Shown here piece after piece: positions 43,804 to 53,995 of a stretch of 64,000 nucleotides of DNA. The notes under the pieces were generated by a model, which did not search any database, was not told where the DNA came from, and worked only from the letters and a program-made list of their open reading frames with translations. How positions within the stretch are numbered: the stretch's first letter is position 1; every line of letters starts with the position of its first letter. The position numbers were made by a program, and so were the translations under genes. The stretch is from Chloracidobacterium validum. Lineage in GTDB: Bacteria > Acidobacteriota > Blastocatellia > Chloracidobacteriales > Chloracidobacteriaceae. The stretch spans positions 434,001 through 498,000 of the forward strand of contig NZ_CP072649.1 of NCBI RefSeq assembly GCF_018304825.1. The letters run 5' to 3'.

Positions 43804-46800
43804 TCACCCAAGGCGGACGCCGACCAGGGTGACATCATCGCGTTGTGGTTCTCCGGCCCGGTGTTGGTCAAAGTCCTGTTCGATCTGCTGCCGCTGGAGC
43901 GGAAGGGGCTGCGGCGCGACCATCGCCAGCAACTGCTTGAGCGCGCGCGACCCGTAACGTTGTCCGAGCGGGTTGTTTTGGTCGGCAAAGCCATCCGAGC
44001 CAAGGTAAAGCATGGCGCCGGGCGCGAGTGAAAGGCGCTGCTCGGTAAAGCGCCGCTGCCGGATGCGACTACCGATGCTGCCCCGGTCGCCGCGAACCTC
44101 CCGCAAAACGCCACGTTCAACGATGTAAAGCGGACGCCCCGCGCCAGCAAACGTCACGCTTCCGTCGGCATCGAGCCGACAGAGCGCGACATCCATCCCG
44201 TCGCGCTGTCCATCCTGGCGGGCGTCGTGCCGGAACGCCGCCCGAATGCTCGCATCCAGGGTGTCGAGCGCCGCCGCCGGGGATTCAATCCCCCGCTCGA
44301 TCACGATCTGGTTGAGCAACTCATTGCCGATCATCGCCATCAGCGCGCCGGGGACGCCATGCCCGGTGCAGTCCACCACCGCCAGCCACCGCGCTTGGCC
44401 GCCGGGGGGCTTTCCACCATAAAGCCAGTAAAAGTCGCCCGATACGATGTCGCGGGGGCGCCAGAACACGAAGTGCTCGATAATGCACTGCGTAAATTCC
44501 TCCGGCGTGGGCAGGATCGCCCGCTGAATGCGTTCGGCATAGCGTAAGCTGTCCAGAATCTCGGACGTGGTTTGTTCGAGCCGGCGGTTCTTTTCGGCCA
44601 GCTCTTCGGTGCGCCGCCGGACTTTCTCCTCGAGACTGGCGTACAGGCGGGCATTTTCAAGCGAAACCGCCGCCTGCGCGGCCAGAATCGTTAGCGCCTC
44701 GCGGCGCTGAACGGTGAAAGCGTTGGTCACGGCGCGGTGTTCCAGGTAGAGAACGGCGCGAATCTGTCCCCGATGTTGAGCTGGCAGGCAGAGCACCGAC
44801 CGTACGCCGGTCGCCTGAACATAGGGATCGGCGCCAAAATCCGCCGATTCGGTCGCGTCCGCCAGCAGGACACTCTCGCCGGTTCGGGTGACGAGGTGAA
44901 TGACGCTGGCCGGAAGCGTGTTCGTTTCGGTGAGTCGTCGGGACGGCTGCCCGTCCACCGACTGATGCACATCGCGTTCGGCCTCGACGTACCACTGTCC
45001 ATCGTCATGCGGCAGGAGGAGTACGCCGCGTGTTGCTCCGGCGTTTTCCAGAGCAATGCGCAACAGCGCGTCGAGCAGTTGTTCCTGCACGATTTCGCCG
45101 GATAGCACCCGCGCGGCCTTCATGACGCTGGCCACATCAAAGCTGGTGCTCCCGGTCGTGGTGTGGTCGGCCGTGCCGGTTCCCGTCAGCGCCAGGTGCG
45201 TCCCGGTTGAGCGCAGGAAGTTGACCTCGCCTAGCGCAACTTGAAACTGCTCATCCAGATGGCGAACCTTTTCGGTTGCGCCCCAGCGGGCGTAGGCCCG
45301 GCGGGCATCAGCGGCGTAAGCGCGGGCAATCTTGGTTCTGCCTTGTTCCAGAAAGAATCGCGCCGCGCATTCGTTCGCCATGGCTTCCTCGTGGATGAAG
45401 CCCTGTTCGCGCGCGACGGCAATGGCCCGGTCATAGGCGTCCAGCGCCGCGCCTGTCTCGCCACGCGCCGCATGGATTTCAGCGTCCACCAAGTGGAGTT
45501 TCTGGGCGTAGTTCATCGGCGCCAACTCGGCCCACCGTGCCAGACGCCGGCGCGTCTGTCCGAGCCAGTCCCACATCGCGTTGGCTTCCGGCTCGTCCAC
45601 GCCGCCGGCGCGCAGCCGCGCCAAGCGCGTCAGCGCGCCGAACAAATACACATTCGGTTGCAGGCAGGATGACTGGAGTCCGGTCATGTTGGTTTCACAC
45701 AGCACGGACTGTTCATAGGCGCGTTGGATGTCGCCAAAGAAGTACGCCAGCTTCATGCGCAGATAGGCTAGCGTCCCCAGCGTGCCGTAATCGCCCGTTG
45801 CTCGGACAGCGGCGTCATCCAGGGGCTGGTTACCCTCGCCCCAGGTCAGTTGCATCGGATCGTCCGTCTTGACGCGCAGGTTTCGGGTGTAAGCAAGGCA
45901 CAACTGATTCGTCCGGTAGTTTCGTTCCTGGCGCAGCGCGCGAATGGCATCGCCATGGGCCCTGACATCGCGTTCCAGCGCATCCAGCGGCTGTCCAATG
46001 AAAATACCAACCCAGGTCAGCGCCAGCAGGGCCGTCGAGGCAAACTCCAACTCGCCGGTTTCGACGCCTTCCCGGTAGGCAGCCCGCAGCGGCTCGATGG
46101 TCTCACGGACCGGCTCGCGCCAGATATGCAGGAAAAAGTAGTAGGAAGTCAGGGTGCGGACGCGAGCTTCGCTCGACGGGAGACGGTCGAGCAAGTTGCG
46201 CGCGAAGCGGCCGAACAGGGAGCCCCGCGCCGGATCGTCAAACCCGCCGCTCACCACGAGTCCGAGCGCCACGAAGGATGAAGCGGTCAGGGTGTTGATC
46301 CCGTGCCGCAACGTCAGCTCGACGCGCCACAGGACGACCAGCGTGAACAAGACGCTATCGCTCAGGAACGCCGGAACGGATATCCGGTACAGAAGGCGCA
46401 TCGCCGCGTGCGCCTGTGGGTCCTCCAGGTCAGGCATGGACAGCAACGCCTCGAGGTCGAGCGAGGTCAGGCGCGATTCGAGCCGGACCCAGAGCGGGCC
46501 AATGTCAGCGCGCGTTGGCTGCTCTGGCAGGTCGACGCCGAGTTGCCGGAGGACGCTTCGGCCGTGGCCGATCGCGTCATGGAAGCGGTACTGGGCCGAA
46601 TAAGCCAGAATGGCGACTTCGTGGGCTGGAAGTGCGTCGGCCAAGCTCCGCGCGTGGTCAAAGACGGCTTGCGCCAGGCCTTCCGCCGTTTGCGGCCTGG
46701 CGCTGAAAAAAGCGGCTTCAGCGGCTTCGAGGTGCAAGTGGAGCGCCAGTTCGTAGTGGGTCGTCCAGGCTGTTTCCGGCAGCAGACCAAGGCCGGTCTG

Positions 46801-49131
46801 CAAGTACACCAGGGCCGGCGCGAAGGCAGCGGCTCGTTTGGCCGCCCGTCCGGCATGCAGGTTGAGGTGGGCCAGTTCTTCGCGCTCGGCAGCCGTCGCC
46901 AAGTGGTGTCCGCGGTTGAGGTGAGTGGCGATGTCAAAGAGCCGGGCCGCGGAACTCGCCGTCGAGGTGGACGGCGCGGATGGGTTCAAGTCGTTGAGCA
47001 AGTTGCGTCCGATGCGCCAGTGGCGGGCTTGGCGTTCAGCTTCCGGGACGAGTTCGTAGGCGGCTTGCTGGACACGGTCGTGGACGAACAGAAAATGCGT
47101 CGGGCGGCGTCCGGCGACGGCCTCGCCGACGACGAGATTGGCTTCGACGGCCGCCTCCAGCGCGGCTTGCACATCGGCTACGGTCGTTTCGGCCGCCAAG
47201 GCGACTTGCGCGGTTTCGACATGGTTCCCAAGACAAGCGGCCGCCTGGAGAATCCGCTGCACATCAGGCGCGCAGCGGTGAAGCTTTTCAATCAAAAACG
47301 CCACGACGTGCTCGGTAATCCGGGCCGTGGCGATGCCTGCCAAGTCGGCGCGCCATCCTTGTTCGGGCTGATAGGTCAGCCAGCCATCGGCGGCAAGTCG
47401 CTCCAGGAGTTCGCGGACGAAAAACGGATTGCCGCCGGTCTTGCGGTGAACGACCTCTGCCACCGCTGTGGCATCCGGCGCGTGGTCCATGGCCGCTGCC
47501 GTCAGTTGCGTGACGCTCTCCAGCGTGAGCGGTGACAGCTTGATGTGGGTCATCGTCAACCCGGTCGCACGAATGGCGTCGAGTGTCAACAGCAGGGGAT
47601 GTCCGGGTGGCGTTTCCTGGTCGCGGTAGGCCAGAATGAACAGCGCCTGGGTGGTGTGCCGGCTGCGCGCCAGGGCTGCCAAAAGGTCGAGCGAGGCTGC
47701 GTCCGCCCACTGAACATCGTCCAAAAACAGGACGATTGGACGTTGCCGGGTGGCAAACGCGCCAAGGAGCGACGCGAAGGCGGACTCAAGCCGAGGCCGT
47801 GCCTCCATAGCCGAAATTTCGACTACCGGCTGGGCTTCGCCGACAATCAGCGCCAGCTCCGGGACGAGCGGGAGCAGGATGGCCGCTCCTGAGCCAAGGG
47901 CCGCGGTGAGCGTCGCGCGCCAGCTTGCGAGTTCGGCGTCGCTTTGCGCAAGGAGCTGCCTGGCAAGCTGTCGGCAGGCGGCGCTGATGGCCGAGTAGGG
48001 GGTGTTGCCGCGCAGTTGGTCGTATTTTCCCGTGATGAAAAATCCCCGGCGCGCCAGGACCGGCACCTGGATTTCCCCGATGAGCGCCGTTTTGCCGATG
48101 CCAGACGCGCCGCTGACGAGGACCATCTCGTGCCCGGACTGACAAACGCGGTCAAAGGCTTCCTGCAGGAGGGCGATTTCACGCGCTCGGCCGTACAGGC
48201 GCTTGGGCACGACAAAGGTGGCCGCATCTCGCCGCCCCAGTGGAAAGGGTGTCAGGGCCGGCTGGGTGTGGTCGCCCTGCTGGGTGAGTTGATGTAGGAC
48301 CTCGGCCAAATCGAAACGCGCCCCGGCGGCCGTCTGGTAGCGGTCGTCCGGTGACTTGGCCATCAGTTTCGCCACGATGTCCGACAGCACAGGCGGAAGT
48401 CGCCGGTTGCGCTGATGCGCCGGCGGTGGCGTGAGCGCCAAGTGGCCATGGAGCATCTCCAGGGCATCGTTGGCGTGGAAGGGCAGCGTCCCGGTCAACA
48501 GTTCATAAAGCGAAACGCCGAACGCATAGAGGTCGGCGCGCGCGTCCACGGTCCGGCTCAGTCGCCCGGTTTGCTCGGGAGCAATGTAGGCCAGGGTGCC
48601 TTCAAACGTTTCCGCCGCCAAACGACCGGCCGTGACGCGCCGACTCTGAACCGCAATCCCAAAGTCAATGAGCTTGACCTGCCGGGTCGTGCGATTGATG
48701 ACGATGTTTGCTGGGTTGACATCCTTGTGCAGGATGCCGGCGGCATGGACGGACTCGATAGCGGTGAGGACCTCGATGGCTATCGCCAGGCGTTCGGTGA
48801 GCGGCAGGTCGGTGTAGGCGTTGACCGCGTAGCGCAACGCCTGTCCGCCAAAATCTTCAGCCACCAGGACGGGGCGGTGTCCGACGCGGGTCAGGTCATA
48901 GGCCCGCGCGACTTGGGCGGAGGGCTGGGAGGCCGCCAGCAGCGAAAGCAACGACCACTCGTGGTCATAGCGCAGGACGAGCGCCGCCGCCGGAACGGCT
49001 TCAACGGTTGTTTTGAGGATGACCGGTTCGCCAGTTTCCATCCGCTGCGCCCGAAGCACCAACGTTCGGTCACTGCGGTACACTTCAGATAGAACTTGGT
49101 AGCCGGGTGGTACGCAGTCGTAAACCAGCAT
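43804..49131 (-). CDS. Giant Ser/Thr kinase - AAA ATPase - GAF - SpoIIE phosphatase protein
   Basis: A 1775-residue cytoplasmic signalling protein. Kinase domain (residues 10-275): VILK with K40, HKDVNPANI with D137, DFG at 156-158, APEQTGR. Signal-transduction ATPase (about 320-620): Walker A GASGIGKT near 342-349, Walker B IVLFLDDVQWADAAS. A long helical region (about 700-1330) follows. GAF (about 1345-1490; LRIALENAGATRGVLLL). A coiled coil (about 1500-1545) leads to SpoIIE/PP2C (about 1550-1775; DIVSGDFYWLY, VVDCTGHGVPGALMAMIGNELL, LYLGSDGFADQNN). Bacterial relatives usually end in a histidine kinase; here the output is a phosphatase, so kinase and phosphatase share one chain. Divergent from the 155-residue gene at 49459. 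Confidence 0.9.
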   Translation of the reverse strand: MLVYDCVPPGYQVLSEVYRSDRTLVLRAQRMETGEPVILKTTVEAVPAAALVLRYDHEWSLLSLLAASQPSAQVARAYDLTRVGHRPVLVAEDFGGQALRYAVNAYTDLPLTERLAIAIEVLTAIESVHAAGILHKDVNPANIVINRTTRQVKLIDFGIAVQSRRVTAGRLAAETFEGTLAYIAPEQTGRLSRTVDARADLYAFGVSLYELLTGTLPFHANDALEMLHGHLALTPPPAHQRNRRLPPVLSDIVAKLMAKSPDDRYQTAAGARFDLAEVLHQLTQQGDHTQPALTPFPLGRRDAATFVVPKRLYGRAREIALLQEAFDRVCQSGHEMVLVSGASGIGKTALIGEIQVPVLARRGFFITGKYDQLRGNTPYSAISAACRQLARQLLAQSDAELASWRATLTAALGSGAAILLPLVPELALIVGEAQPVVEISAMEARPRLESAFASLLGAFATRQRPIVLFLDDVQWADAASLDLLAALARSRHTTQALFILAYRDQETPPGHPLLLTLDAIRATGLTMTHIKLSPLTLESVTQLTAAAMDHAPDATAVAEVVHRKTGGNPFFVRELLERLAADGWLTYQPEQGWRADLAGIATARITEHVVAFLIEKLHRCAPDVQRILQAAACLGNHVETAQVALAAETTVADVQAALEAAVEANLVVGEAVAGRRPTHFLFVHDRVQQAAYELVPEAERQARHWRIGRNLLNDLNPSAPSTSTASSAARLFDIATHLNRGHHLATAAEREELAHLNLHAGRAAKRAAAFAPALVYLQTGLGLLPETAWTTHYELALHLHLEAAEAAFFSARPQTAEGLAQAVFDHARSLADALPAHEVAILAYSAQYRFHDAIGHGRSVLRQLGVDLPEQPTRADIGPLWVRLESRLTSLDLEALLSMPDLEDPQAHAAMRLLYRISVPAFLSDSVLFTLVVLWRVELTLRHGINTLTASSFVALGLVVSGGFDDPARGSLFGRFARNLLDRLPSSEARVRTLTSYYFFLHIWREPVRETIEPLRAAYREGVETGELEFASTALLALTWVGIFIGQPLDALERDVRAHGDAIRALRQERNYRTNQLCLAYTRNLRVKTDDPMQLTWGEGNQPLDDAAVRATGDYGTLGTLAYLRMKLAYFFGDIQRAYEQSVLCETNMTGLQSSCLQPNVYLFGALTRLARLRAGGVDEPEANAMWDWLGQTRRRLARWAELAPMNYAQKLHLVDAEIHAARGETGAALDAYDRAIAVAREQGFIHEEAMANECAARFFLEQGRTKIARAYAADARRAYARWGATEKVRHLDEQFQVALGEVNFLRSTGTHLALTGTGTADHTTTGSTSFDVASVMKAARVLSGEIVQEQLLDALLRIALENAGATRGVLLLPHDDGQWYVEAERDVHQSVDGQPSRRLTETNTLPASVIHLVTRTGESVLLADATESADFGADPYVQATGVRSVLCLPAQHRGQIRAVLYLEHRAVTNAFTVQRREALTILAAQAAVSLENARLYASLEEKVRRRTEELAEKNRRLEQTTSEILDSLRYAERIQRAILPTPEEFTQCIIEHFVFWRPRDIVSGDFYWLYGGKPPGGQARWLAVVDCTGHGVPGALMAMIGNELLNQIVIERGIESPAAALDTLDASIRAAFRHDARQDGQRDGMDVALCRLDADGSVTFAGAGRPLYIVERGVLREVRGDRGSIGSRIRQRRFTEQRLSLAPGAMLYLGSDGFADQNNPLGQRYGSRALKQLLAMVAPQPLPLQRQQIEQDFDQHRAGEPQRDDVTLVGVRLG

Positions 49132-49458
49132 TGCCCTACTTGACTCGATGCCACAAAAATGTTTGGGAGGCTTAGTCTAAAATTTGTCAAGGGGAATGCC
49201 AAAGAAAGTTTGGAAACGATCCGGTTGTGCGGTCGCCAGCCTCGCCGTTGGGTTGCCACGTGCCGTTGGGTTGCCATGTCGCAGACTTGGTGTTGCGTCA
49301 TGGTGTGGAAGGCAAGCGACACCCGGCGGGAGATGTGTCGGGTCGGTGCTTCGGCGTGGGCGCCGGCCGCGGCCGACTTCCCATGCGCTACCGGACTTGG
49401 GCTATAGTAGTGGGTAGTCGGTGACAGAGATTCCCAGATCGAAAAGGGGCAGCGCCGC
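49132..49458. promoter_or_regulatory. Intergenic region between the divergent kinase and 155-residue genes
   Basis: 327 bases without a gene. It holds two direct copies of GCCGTTGGGTTGCCA (49244-49258 and 49262-49276), 18 bases apart, which could bind a regulator. Promoters for both flanking genes must lie here but I cannot fix one with confidence. Confidence 0.5.
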
Positions 49459-49926
49459 ATGGCAACGCAGGAAGACGCCCAGCTCATTCTGAAACTTTAC
49501 GAACTCCGCCGCGAGCCGGTGATGCGCGAGGCAAGGGACTTCGTTTCATTCAAGTTTTTCCCGGAATCGGCCCAGGACATCAAGGATTTGCTTTTTGACA
49601 AGCGCAATCCGGTGTATGGCGCGTACTGGCGGCAGGTGACGACCTACTGGGACATGACGGCAGCACTCGTCAACCATGGGACGCTCGACGAGGCGCTCTT
49701 CTTTGACACCAACACGGAATGTTTCGCCGTCTTTGCAAAGATTGAGCCATTCTTGCCGGAACTCCGGGAGATGTTTGGCCCGTGGTACATGGTCAACCTT
49801 GAAAAACTGATCCGGCGCTATCCGAACTACAGCGAGCGTTTGAGCAGTTTGCGGACCCGTCTGAAGCTGTATGGCGAGGCTTACAAGGGCAAGAAAACAC
49901 GTGGCTTTCACCCGGAAGAGGATTGA
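49459..49926 (+). CDS. Conserved-looking hypothetical protein
   Basis: A 155-residue, mostly helical soluble protein rich in aromatic residues (PVYGAYWRQVTTYWDM, FGPWYMVNLEKLIRRYPNY). I recognise no family. It has no signal peptide or Cys. It stands just upstream of the selenoprotein candidate, 47 bases away on the same strand, so they may be co-transcribed. Confidence 0.6.
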   Translation: MATQEDAQLILKLYELRREPVMREARDFVSFKFFPESAQDIKDLLFDKRNPVYGAYWRQVTTYWDMTAALVNHGTLDEALFFDTNTECFAVFAKIEPFLPELREMFGPWYMVNLEKLIRRYPNYSERLSSLRTRLKLYGEAYKGKKTRGFHPEED

Positions 49927-49973
49927 CGGAGGCGTGACGGTGGGAGTGGACATCCCCGCCTCAGGGAGTCGGC

Positions 49974-50498
49974 ATGAACATCGCCAAAATTCTTGAGCTA
50001 CCGTTCAAAGGGAACTTCATTCCTTACCCCAGTCGGTCTCTGGTCGAGGTTGGCCAAGCCGCGCCGGATTTCACGCTCCCGGATACACACGGGAAGCCCT
50101 TCACCTTGTCGGCACTTGAGCCGCGGTGGTGTTTGCTCTATCTGACACGCATCGTTGATCGAGGTTTTATCTGACCGTTCTGCTATCCGCGACTGGTCGA
50201 GTTGCGTGACCGATACAGTGAATTCCAGGCAAAGGGCGTCGAGGTGGTGGTCGTCACCACGACGGACGTGGCAACCTCAAAGCTCATTGCCGAAGACTTG
50301 GCGCTCCCGTATCCCTTGCTGAGTGACCCGGAGTGGGTCGTGTTCAAGGGCTATGGAACCGGAGCGGCGCTGGGTGTGCCGTTGCCGGCGCAGTTTTTGA
50401 TTGACGGGCGTGGGCAAGTTGTCGAACGCTACCTGTGTGATTTGATGCCGGACCATCCACCACTCGACGCGACCTTGGCGCGGGTTCCGGCGCGCTGA
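49974..50498 (+). CDS. Redoxin/peroxiredoxin-like protein with in-frame TGA, selenoprotein candidate
   Basis: One frame runs from ATG 49974 to the stop at 50498 (174 residues) with a single TGA at codon 67 (50172-50174). The upstream part (APDFTLPDTHGKPFTLSAL, then LLYLTRIVDRGFI) and the downstream part (PFCYPRLVELRDRYSEFQAK, VPLPAQFLIDGRGQVVERYL) are both AhpC/TSA-like and stay in register. The TGA falls where homologues carry the first Cys of a CPFC redox motif, giving U67-P-F-C70. A stem-loop with GGUC in its loop lies 20 bases past the TGA. Selenocysteine insertion is the best reading. A nonsense mutation or sequencing error is the alternative. GGGAG precedes the ATG. Annotation tools would split it into two genes. 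Confidence 0.78.
50180..50218 (+). promoter_or_regulatory. Candidate bacterial SECIS stem-loop
   Basis: Upper helix of seven pairs: CGCGACT (50188-50194) with AGTTGCG (50200-50206), one G-U pair, loop GGTCG (50195-50199). A lower helix of TATC (50184-50187) with GATA (50212-50215), and CTG (50180-50182) with CAG (50216-50218), is offset by a bulge at 50207-50211. The loop starts 20 bases after TGA; bacterial SECIS loops lie about 16-37 nt downstream, and the E. coli fdhF loop also reads GGUC. Confidence 0.7.
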
Positions 50499-50565
50499 AT
50501 CGTCGTGTTTTGCTCCTGCCCGTGGTCCTGGAAGCTGGGAAGTTCAACCGCGGAAGCGACTGCTC

Positions 50566-51933
50566 ATGAAAGCTTGTCCAAAGTGTGAAACGCTCTGGGA
50601 TGACAGCAAGCGGTTTTGCCCTTACCATGGTGTGCTCCTGACGGAAGTGCCGGAAGGGGATGCCGTGGTGGAACGTGATGGCTCAGACGCGGCAAAAGGT
50701 GACCTTGTGGACATCGAATTGACCGTACGCATGAGCGAAGAAGAACGCGCCCAACTGTTCACCCCGCAGTTTCCGCCGCCGCCTTCGCCGCTGGCTACCC
50801 CGTCGCCGGCGAGCGTGACAGATGAAGCCCTCTTCCAGACAGGCCGGGAGGCGGAACGCCCTGACCCGGCCCTACCCTTCGCGCCGGAACCGTTGCCCCC
50901 GTCGTCATTCGAGACGGCGGCTTACCTTGAGGACCCGCCTACCGCAAAGTCCGGCCGCGTTGTTGCCACCACCGAGCCACCGCCTGATGCGTTTGACCCG
51001 TTTATTCCGCCGACGGTTATTGTTGCGCCTGCGGCGCTTCCCCCTGAGTCGCGGCAGGTCACGCCCCCGCCCAGGCTGGATGTGGTTATTCCCCCGACTG
51101 TCGTGGTGGCTTCGGCTGAAGCTGGCCTGGCTACCCCATCCCAGTTGGAAGGCGGCGTGGCTGGGCCGGCTGCCACTTCCCGCCTGGCTGACGACTTCAG
51201 CCCATTGACGGTGAATCCCGGCGCCGCCCCAACGACGCCTATGGATGCGTCGGCCACGCATGTCCACTTGAATTTGCCCATGCCCAGTGGCCCGCGTCCG
51301 CCGGTCTTTCCCCCCGAACTCAAAGCTTCGGACGTGGAGGATGATGTGGGCTTTATTCTGGACCTTGGCGAGAAAAGCAGCGCCCGCCTCACCCCGCCAC
51401 CAGTGCCTGCGGCAGTTGAGTCGCCTCAGCCACCAGCCGGGCGGAGCCTGACGCCCTCCGCCGTTCCCTCGCTGGTTCCGCCGGTGTCCCCAACGATCAA
51501 GCGGCTTACAGCCGTGCAGTATTTCAAGCTGTTCAACGAACGCAAAAAAGTCATTCAGCAGTTTGTTCAGCAGCTTGATCCCAAAAAGGCACAAATCGCC
51601 GAGGGGCACAGTAACCAGGAAGACCTGTTACTGCACCGCTATGACCTTACTTTTCGGGCCCTCCACGCCACGCGAACTTTTCCGCTTGTGATTATTTTGC
51701 AACGGAAGCCAGTCTATGGCTTGCTCACGTCAATTGACCTCTACGAAATTGCCGAATCCCAAATGCTGCGCGAAGAGCGCACAAAAAGCCTTGGTGGAGA
51801 TTGCAAGTCAACGCCGAATGGGGTTCTCTACTATTTGTCCTATGCTGAAGACCTACCCACCGAGCAGTTTGGCGATTGGCTCCGGGCAAAGTTTCAAGCG
51901 ATTGTGGGATTGATTCCGGGCGCTAGCCTGTAA
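50566..51933 (+). CDS. Zinc-ribbon protein with proline-rich linker, unknown function
   Basis: A 455-residue protein. A short N-terminal ribbon has CPKCETLWDDSKRFCPYHG (residues 4-22), likely to bind zinc. A long disordered Pro/Ala/Ser-rich region (about 70-310) includes IPPTV repeats (PFIPPTVIVA and VVIPPTVVVA). The last 130 residues fold (KRLTAVQYFKLFNERKKVIQQ; LQRKPVYGLLTSIDLYEIAES). No membrane helix. I cannot name a family. Confidence 0.6.
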   Translation: MKACPKCETLWDDSKRFCPYHGVLLTEVPEGDAVVERDGSDAAKGDLVDIELTVRMSEEERAQLFTPQFPPPPSPLATPSPASVTDEALFQTGREAERPDPALPFAPEPLPPSSFETAAYLEDPPTAKSGRVVATTEPPPDAFDPFIPPTVIVAPAALPPESRQVTPPPRLDVVIPPTVVVASAEAGLATPSQLEGGVAGPAATSRLADDFSPLTVNPGAAPTTPMDASATHVHLNLPMPSGPRPPVFPPELKASDVEDDVGFILDLGEKSSARLTPPPVPAAVESPQPPAGRSLTPSAVPSLVPPVSPTIKRLTAVQYFKLFNERKKVIQQFVQQLDPKKAQIAEGHSNQEDLLLHRYDLTFRALHATRTFPLVIILQRKPVYGLLTSIDLYEIAESQMLREERTKSLGGDCKSTPNGVLYYLSYAEDLPTEQFGDWLRAKFQAIVGLIPGASL

Positions 51934-51938
51934 GTTTT

Positions 51939-52922
51939 ATGGTGATGGAGACGGCTTTAGCGGAGGCGTCCACGGCGGCTGAATCTGGGTTGTGCCAGGT
52001 GCCGGCGTCCGCCGTGGGGGTCCGGCTCGATGTCTTTTTGTCCACGCATTTGGGGGTCAGCCGGGCGCGTGTCCAGCGCGCCATCACCGATGGTGAGGTT
52101 CGGGTCAATGGGCAGGTCAAGCGCCCAAGTTACCGGCTGGAATCAGGAGATGACATCGAGGCTGACCTTCCGGCTCCAGTGACGACCGACTTGGTGCCGG
52201 AAAACTTGCCGCTGCGGGTGCTCTTTGAAGATGAATCCATCCTGGTGCTCGACAAGCCGGCCGGACAGGTCGTTCATCCCGCAGCCGGCGTCTGGCAGGG
52301 AACGGTTGCCAATGCGCTGGCCTTTCACTTTGGCGCGCAGCGTCCAGGCGCAGAGGCCTGCCGTCCGGGCATCGTCCACCGACTCGACCGGGATACGTCC
52401 GGCGTGATGGTGGTGGCCAAGACGGATACGGCGCTGGAGCATCTGGCTGCCCAGTTTCGGGAGCGGATGGTGGAAAAACACTATGTGGCGCTGGTTCATG
52501 GCGATTTGATTGAACCTGGTGTCATTGACGCCCCACTGGCCCGCGACCGAAAGCATCGCCTCAAAATGGCCGTTGATGCCCAAGGTCGCCCGGCCCGGTC
52601 GCGCTATGCCGTCCGGCAGCGGCTGGGGCAAGTGACACTGCTCGATATTCAGATTGAAACCGGGCGAACGCACCAGATTCGTGTTCACTGCGCGCATATC
52701 CGCCATCCGGTGGTTGGCGATCCGCTCTATGGGCTAGGGCGTGATAACCAACTGCGGGATGCGGCACAGCGCCAGGCTGTTGCACGGTTAGGAAGGCAGT
52801 TTCTGCACGCGGCTCGACTGGCGTTTCTGCATCCATCCTCTGCCCAGCCGGTCTGCTTTACTGCTCCGCTCCCACCAGATTTGGAAGCGTGTTTGAACGT
52901 CTTTACCAGTGCATCCAGCTAG
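51939..52922 (+). CDS. rluD: RluA/RluD-family pseudouridine synthase
   Basis: A 327-residue enzyme. An N-terminal S4 RNA-binding domain (about residues 27-75; GVRLDVFLSTHLGVSRARVQ) precedes the catalytic domain with HRLDRDTSGVMVVAK, catalytic D150, and the RTHQIRVH motif. It would convert uridines in 23S rRNA (RluD-like) to pseudouridine. The start is the ATG at 51939; an in-frame ATG six bases on is an alternative. No clear ribosome-binding site is seen, and it begins 5 bases after the previous stop, so it may be coupled. Confidence 0.88.
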   Translation: MVMETALAEASTAAESGLCQVPASAVGVRLDVFLSTHLGVSRARVQRAITDGEVRVNGQVKRPSYRLESGDDIEADLPAPVTTDLVPENLPLRVLFEDESILVLDKPAGQVVHPAAGVWQGTVANALAFHFGAQRPGAEACRPGIVHRLDRDTSGVMVVAKTDTALEHLAAQFRERMVEKHYVALVHGDLIEPGVIDAPLARDRKHRLKMAVDAQGRPARSRYAVRQRLGQVTLLDIQIETGRTHQIRVHCAHIRHPVVGDPLYGLGRDNQLRDAAQRQAVARLGRQFLHAARLAFLHPSSAQPVCFTAPLPPDLEACLNVFTSASS

Positions 52923-52995: not shown

Positions 52996-53262
52996 TTACG
53001 CTGACTTTTTGGTCTTCTTGCTGGCAGTGCACTGTCCATCCACGCAGCAGTCGCTCCCTGGGGCGCAGCACTCGGCGCCCATGTCACAGGACTGTCCGGT
53101 GCAGCAGTTGGGTTTCGCGCAGCAGGCGGCACTTTCCTTCTTCTTGGTTGCGCAGCAGGTGGCCGGGGCTTTTTTCGCCGATTTTGGCGTTTTCGGAGTC
53201 GCAAAAGCGCCGCCAAAGGTGGTCGCAACGAGGAACAAAGCTGGAACAAGAACCTTCAACAT
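52996..53262 (-). CDS. Exported Cys-rich protein with CC motifs
   Basis: An 88-residue protein. The signal peptide covers about residues 1-20 (VLVPALFLVATTFGGAFA). The mature part is short, Lys-rich and contains repeated Cys pairs: ATCCATKKK, SAACCAKPNCCTGQSC, AECCAPGSDCCVDGQC. Thirteen Cys in about 65 residues suggest metal binding or a disulphide knot in the periplasm. AAGGAG precedes the ATG at 53262 at good spacing. The upstream gene encodes another exported protein with a CC motif. Function unknown; metal sequestration is an inference. Confidence 0.7.
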   Translation of the reverse strand: MLKVLVPALFLVATTFGGAFATPKTPKSAKKAPATCCATKKKESAACCAKPNCCTGQSCDMGAECCAPGSDCCVDGQCTASKKTKKSA

Positions 53263-53362
53263 GATGTGTCTCCTTTTTTTCAAGTTCAAAGTAACTAGTT
53301 GTGAAGTCCTGACCCTCGGTAGAGGATCGTTAGCCAACGCGACCAGACTTGCAACTAAGGTA

Positions 53363-53995
53363 CTAAATTCTGAAGACACAATGTTTTAGGTAAGTTTCAC
53401 GCCGTGATGCCAAATAGACGCTTGCCGCCACCGGGCGTGGCTGGCAGGGCTTGGCGGTTACCACCCAGGTCAGCCGCGCGGGCATCACCGTGGGCAGCGG
53501 CGCGGCAAAGGTAAACGTTTGGGTGACTGTGAACCGGGTTGGCGCGGATGACCGATGGCAGCCACAACCGGCATCATCACTGCCGGTCAAAAGCCGCGTT
53601 GGGTGCTCGCCGTCTGACGCGCTTTGCCCGTCACCATTGATCAGTTGGGGCGGACCTGGTTGACAGTCTTTGGCTGACCGGCCGGGCAAACTGGCTTGAT
53701 CCGCTGGCTTGGCAGGTTTCCTGGTAGCGCAGCAGGCAGGCGTGTGGCGCGTAACGCGCTCGGTGCTCAACGCGGCCGGCGCAGACGTTTGCCGTGTATT
53801 CACCAACCGTGTTTGCGTGTCCAACGGCGCGCGCGTGATGGACTCTGGCGCTGCGGCTGCGTCCACGGCGCGCGACTGGGCGGCATGCAGGCAGCCCCCC
53901 AGCAAGCAGGTCAGCACACAGGCCAGCGGCGTCACCCAGAGGCTTGAAACCACGAGCAGGGAAATCGGTGCTGGCCAACGAGACAAACGCATCAT
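53363..53995 (-). CDS. Exported protein with CC motif, unknown function
   Basis: A 210-residue protein. The N-terminal signal (about residues 1-35, LLVVSSLWVTPLACVLTCLLGG) ends near CLHAAQS. The mature chain has HTPACCATRKPAK, then a CQPGPPQL segment, GCGCHRSSAPTRF and a C-terminal strand region. It shares the CCATxK motif with the 88-residue gene downstream. A double ATG (53995/53992) gives the start, though no clear ribosome-binding site is visible. Function unknown; with its neighbour it could handle a metal. Confidence 0.55.
   Translation of the reverse strand: MMRLSRWPAPISLLVVSSLWVTPLACVLTCLLGGCLHAAQSRAVDAAAAPESITRAPLDTQTRLVNTRQTSAPAALSTERVTRHTPACCATRKPAKPADQASLPGRSAKDCQPGPPQLINGDGQSASDGEHPTRLLTGSDDAGCGCHRSSAPTRFTVTQTFTFAAPLPTVMPARLTWVVTAKPCQPRPVAASVYLASRRETYLKHCVFRI

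Follow-up and report, generated by a model that had tools for sequence, protein, structure and literature searches.

An open reading frame of the redoxin type in Chloracidobacterium validum, at 49974–50498 on the forward strand of the 64,000-nucleotide stretch of DNA analyzed here (the window), is interrupted by a TGA codon at 50172–50174, raising the question of whether this codon terminates translation or is read as selenocysteine (Sec). The genome is nearly complete and assembled in two contigs of 2,659,040 and 1,000,103 bases, of which the smaller holds the window. The sequence confirms the arrangement given in a preliminary description of the locus: the frame is closed by a second TGA (50496–50498), contains a single internal TGA, and reads through as MNIAKILELPFKGNFIPYPSRSLVEVGQAAPDFTLPDTHGKPFTLSALEPRWCLLYLTRIVDRGFI-U-PFCYPRLVELR..., a protein of 174 residues in which Sec would be residue 67, within a U67-P-F-C70 motif (Cys70 at 50181–50183). 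The accompanying claim of family similarity on both sides of the TGA also holds, as the Pfam AhpC-TSA domain (PF00578) matches residues 26–151 of the read-through protein across the TGA (1.3e-25; 90.2 bits vs a gathering score of 26), and the Pfam Redoxin domain is likewise unbroken over it (1.3e-15). UxxC or CxxU motifs around a TGA that has 50 or more open codons to either side are not rare in the window (11 cases, this one included), so the case for U67 rests on comparison; it is the family match, together with conservation and a downstream hairpin, that sets this TGA apart from chance motifs.

Conservation was assessed in all seven available species-level genomes of Chloracidobacterium, which are independent assemblies. 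In 7/7 genomes, the gene has a single internal TGA, always at codon 67, and no other frame break, with the UPFC motif kept throughout, and the proteins of the six congeners are 78–87% identical to the C. validum redoxin over residues 1–174. Mean dN is 0.094 before the TGA and 0.098 after it, with mean dS values of 1.2 and 1.05, respectively (values of about 1.0–1.3, synonymous sites being near saturation); the near-equal dN at high dS on both sides indicates that selection on the protein is equally strong in the two halves. The six congener loci that were searched also share the gene order, in which a gene for a DUF4760 protein (49459–49926, forward strand, 155 residues; PF15956, 8.4e-25) lies upstream of the redoxin gene, and genes for a 455-residue protein and for an RluD-type pseudouridine synthase lie downstream. 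The 455-residue protein (50566–51933, forward strand) is Pro-rich with N-terminal Cys pairs, has no Pfam match, and is 46–55% identical in the six syntenic loci; both immediate neighbors are given for context only. Two further genes in the vicinity are recorded here in their own right: a small Cys-rich open reading frame of 127 residues on the reverse strand (52996–53379; CCATKKKESAACCAKPNCCTGQSCDMGAECCAPGSDCCVDGQC), which has no Pfam match and looks, from its sequence, like a metal-binding or metallothionein-like protein, and a reverse-strand gene at 43804–49131 for a 1775-residue protein that combines a Ser/Thr kinase, an AAA_16 ATPase, a GAF domain, and a SpoIIE phosphatase in one chain.

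The machinery for Sec incorporation is complete. The C. validum genome contains selA (441 bits), selB (341 bits, over its cut-off), and selD (380 bits), together with a tRNA-Sec gene (selC; 63.5 bits, over its cut-off) with the anticodon UCA (TCA in DNA), thus the absence of selB and selC that the preliminary description had named as grounds for rejecting the reading is not what the genome presents. The SelD protein of Chloracidobacterium is itself a Cys form (AGCAAK; L062, G000:C2:357789–358715), and the selD genes of relatives outside the family, from the same order and class (G010–G019), contain one in-frame TGA; a Sec/Cys exchange in SelD is therefore observed inside the class Blastocatellia.

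Bacterial SECIS elements are hairpins just downstream of the UGA that present a G-U containing apical loop about 16–37 nt from it. Comparative evidence places such a hairpin at 50188–50206 on the forward strand, with a 7 bp helix (50188–50194 paired with 50200–50206) and a GGUCG apical loop (50195–50199). The seven-pair helix and the loop are as previously described, but the spacing of 20 nt that had been attributed to the start of the stem belongs to the start of the loop; the helix begins 13 nt past the TGA. The position and loop thus agree with the bacterial rule, and the element is conserved and co-varying. The 20 nt from 50187 to 50206 are identical in the seven species, whereas no other invariant run in the gene exceeds 8, and codons 72–77 are all synonymously invariant, compared with 10/112 comparable codons elsewhere (Fisher p = 2.4e-6; run permutation for the invariant synonymous stretch, p = 2.2e-4). 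Across 20 distinct acidobacterial sequences, homologues that were picked for fitting the SECIS register (FYRGYW-type rows have hairpins in other registers), all 120/120 cells of the six inner pairs can pair, vs 17–39% in slid-partner controls. Double changes occur at two helix pairs in this set (GC to AU at one, GC to CG or UA at the other); the helix covariation score was reached by no shuffle, and the count of doubly changed pairs did not exceed what shuffles give (69/500). As the independent double changes number only about three and the coding sequence also constrains the helix, we take pairing and covariation as supporting, not decisive, evidence for the putative element. Folding the region downstream of the TGA, a check that the preliminary description had proposed, gave no support, since shuffled sequences fold about as stably as the lone 50-nt region (z = −0.53); the evidence for the hairpin is therefore comparative. 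The minimum-energy folds of 48 nt from two orthologues adopt alternative structures lacking the SECIS helix, and no Rfam model matched within 49000–52000.

Homologues were sought by a profile search over 396 genomes of the phylum, in which the genus scored about 370 bits and all else at most 71. Many of the next relatives are themselves UGA-containing redoxins, and among these, nearly all that were read in a redoxin frame have their UGA in the same column, followed by xxC (SRSADWUPYC, FYRGYWUPFC, and similar). Cys versions of that column also exist (SRSVDWCPYC, SRSADWCPYC, and FYRGGWCPFC, with CPYC or CPFC in L073, L081, and L094), and Cys70 is invariant in 35 aligned proteins. In BCP/PrxQ-type proteins, the U67 column is occupied by Thr and C70 aligns with the peroxidatic Cys. 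The expectation that homologues would carry a redox residue at this position is thus borne out, as Sec or Cys, by the nearer acidobacterial homologues but not by the BCP-type proteins, in which the column holds the Thr of peroxiredoxins. A tree of the 35 proteins places the genus as the long-branched sister of the SRSADWUPYC clade with support of 93/86, below the strict threshold, and the Cys proteins are nested among the Sec proteins; plasmid records yielded only distant proteins, mostly BCP and about 30% identical. Two observations concern the wider family. Some genomes encode two UxxC redoxin paralogues, or Sec and Cys versions together (L072/L126 in G079, L108/L109 in G346, and L122/L073 in G163), and the SRSADWUPYC group is widespread in acidobacteria, with a GCAGCU/AGCUGC SECIS helix at fixed spacing (L077, L087, L095, L111, L113, L115, and others); its members are possibly mis-annotated in many genomes.

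Three explanations of the TGA other than Sec insertion have to be weighed against these data. That it represents a sequencing error or a recent nonsense mutation, in a gene that truly encodes Cys or is dead, might be entertained because a Cys codon is one base away and some homologues have Cys in the U67 column; however, the TGA recurs in 7/7 species-level genomes from independent assemblies, although the proteins diverge by up to 22%, and on either side of it dN is about 0.1 while dS exceeds 1. Sequencing error (a TGC or TGT at 50172–50174, as had been envisaged), a pseudogene, and a split gene are in practice excluded by this combination, and we consider the explanation extremely unlikely. 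A genuine stop, giving a 66-residue peptide and a second protein from a downstream start, is also very improbable. UGA is an ordinary stop elsewhere in the genome and an in-frame TTG is present at 50202, the first available, but the PFCYPRLVE segment between stop and TTG would then be untranslated, yet it is conserved as protein; each half would lack part of the redoxin fold, the homologues are one continuous chain with U or C, and we see no other function for the invariant hairpin. Low-level read-through of UGA by near-cognate suppression does occur in bacteria, and UGA could on such grounds, or through a code change, be read here as Trp or Cys. We give this hardly any credence: the genome has a dedicated tRNA-Sec (UCA) and the full sel set, residue 67 falls at the redox Cys/Sec column, and UGA has not been reassigned, since it terminates this very redoxin gene in most of the seven species. 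The conserved UGA, the equal constraint on both sides, the sel machinery, the conserved hairpin, and the U/Cys column of the homologues together indicate that Sec is almost certainly inserted at 50172–50174.

UxxC selenoproteins of the Prx-like kind have been published (PMC1088965, PMC2398784, PMC13188914) and known since at least 2005 (PMC1088965), under the names ‘Prx-like protein’ (PMC1088965), ‘Prx-like 1’ (PMC2398784), and ‘Prx-like thiol:disulfide oxidoreductase’ (PF00578, UxxC/UxxU; PMC13188914 Table 1), the last being listed as a predicted class (PMC13188914); a survey of 2006 counted 4 selenoproteins from 3 families in Acidobacteria (PMC1794560). The C. validum redoxin shares with this class a PF00578 match above the cut-off, a UxxC motif with Sec in the N-terminal position, and a large distance from canonical Prx, a likeness that holds by the published definition (domain and motif) and not by alignment to the representative WP_010940744.1. 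It differs in its own long branch, a 4-residue insertion before the motif, and an N-terminal extension. From its sequence, we regard it as a new and divergent member of the known Prx-like UxxC class, one that would form a long-branch subfamily of its own. Its identity to the aligned acidobacterial homologues is 28–43%. It has UPxC in the same column as the SRSADWUPYC and FYRGxWUPFC redoxins, and shares the spacing of the SECIS helix and a sister relationship (93/86) with the SRSADW group, but reads TRIVDRGFIU where they have FSRSADWU; members of the SRSADW group are, moreover, mostly parts of longer open frames (350–400 codons), unlike the Chloracidobacterium gene.

The preliminary description had called the gene peroxiredoxin-like, and it does encode an AhpC/TSA-type redoxin. 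By the BCP/PrxQ alignment, the protein is not a canonical peroxiredoxin (PxxxTxxC/U): the position three residues ahead of the peroxidatic C/U, where such enzymes have their catalytic Thr, is U67, and the active site is a thioredoxin-like UxxC one, of the Prx-like thiol:disulfide oxidoreductase type. The canonical Sec peroxiredoxin PrxU (PxxxTxxU) has the AhpC/TSA fold in common with it but has Sec where the redoxin has Cys, and Thr where it has U (NF040737, 34 bits vs a cut-off of 270). The SelL-related redox protein shares a Prx-like fold and a UxxC/CxxC-type site (NF040769, 40.7 bits vs 120), and the ResA/TlpA thiol-disulfide oxidoreductases have CxxC at the place of UPFC (ResA NF002854, 50.2 bits vs 170); unlike in ResA/TlpA, Sec replaces the first Cys and no membrane anchor was seen by eye. 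The redoxin scored below every NCBIfam cut-off, as did the acidobacterial relatives tested, including those of the SRSADWUPYC group.

The closest solved structures by sequence are ResA thiol-disulfide oxidoreductases and PrxQ/AhpE peroxiredoxins. An AlphaFold2 model built from four sequences has a thioredoxin fold of moderate quality (pLDDT 67, pTM 0.70) with U67 just before helix 70–86, and Foldseek returned ResA first and then peroxiredoxins (E of about 1e-9 to 1e-8). These matches to the model agree with the sequence searches but do not separate disulfide from peroxide chemistry. Action chiefly as a peroxidase, with the selenolate reacting with H2O2 or alkyl peroxides, is an alternative that we rate as less likely than not to be correct but far from negligible. 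In its favor, the best domain is AhpC-TSA, structure searches place AhpE, PrxQ, and BCP nearby, and C70 occupies the column of the peroxidatic Cys in BCP-type proteins. Against it, U67 itself stands where TxxC/TxxU has the catalytic Thr, the top matches by both sequence and fold are ResA-type thiol-disulfide oxidoreductases, and the class has been published, as a prediction, under the name thiol:disulfide oxidoreductase (PMC13188914).

Overall, we are highly confident that the data are best explained by a thioredoxin-fold, Prx-like UxxC selenoprotein that receives Sec through SECIS and SelB and performs selenol redox chemistry at U67. Sec-tRNA would be made by SelD and SelA, and the UGA would be read by tRNA-Sec (UCA), delivered by SelB bound to the SECIS hairpin just downstream. 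The selenol of U67 is predicted to lie just ahead of the first active-site helix, where thioredoxin/ResA-like CxxC proteins have their nucleophile; it may attack a disulfide or a peroxide and then form a selenenylsulfide with C70, to be reset by a thioredoxin-type reductant. Sec incorporation, catalytic chemistry, substrate, and reductant are all predictions for this redoxin, drawn from sequence. Its location is probably cytoplasmic; no signal peptide was seen by eye.

The C. validum genome contains 16 AhpC/TSA matches, and only the U67 redoxin has a TGA. None is present in three molybdopterin oxidoreductases, six thioredoxin matches, or one CMD protein, a SelW-type Rdx is absent from the genome, and no other selenoprotein was found there in the families tested. 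Searches of two genomes with a UP[FY]C codon pattern gave 22–23 matches each, vs 17–18 for a reversed control, and none of the matches with loci resembled a second redoxin. It is conceivable, though we hold the idea only tentatively, that the whole Sec machinery (selA, selB, selC, and selD) is kept essentially for this one redoxin, a subfamily of its own with TRIVDRGFIUPFC.

We found no paper linking Chloracidobacterium with selenoproteins or selenocysteine; the present analysis indicates that selenocysteine is very probably in use in the genus, and that a conserved redox enzyme, its activity being predicted, is encoded by a gene that is apt to be split or labeled a pseudogene. Chloracidobacterium lives as a phototroph in oxygenated microbial mats, and a selenol redoxin may therefore be relevant to how it deals chemically with oxidative stress. 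If the redoxin is indeed the sole Sec client, the genus would offer a clean system, in which losing this one protein ought to have the same effect as losing the entire Sec pathway.
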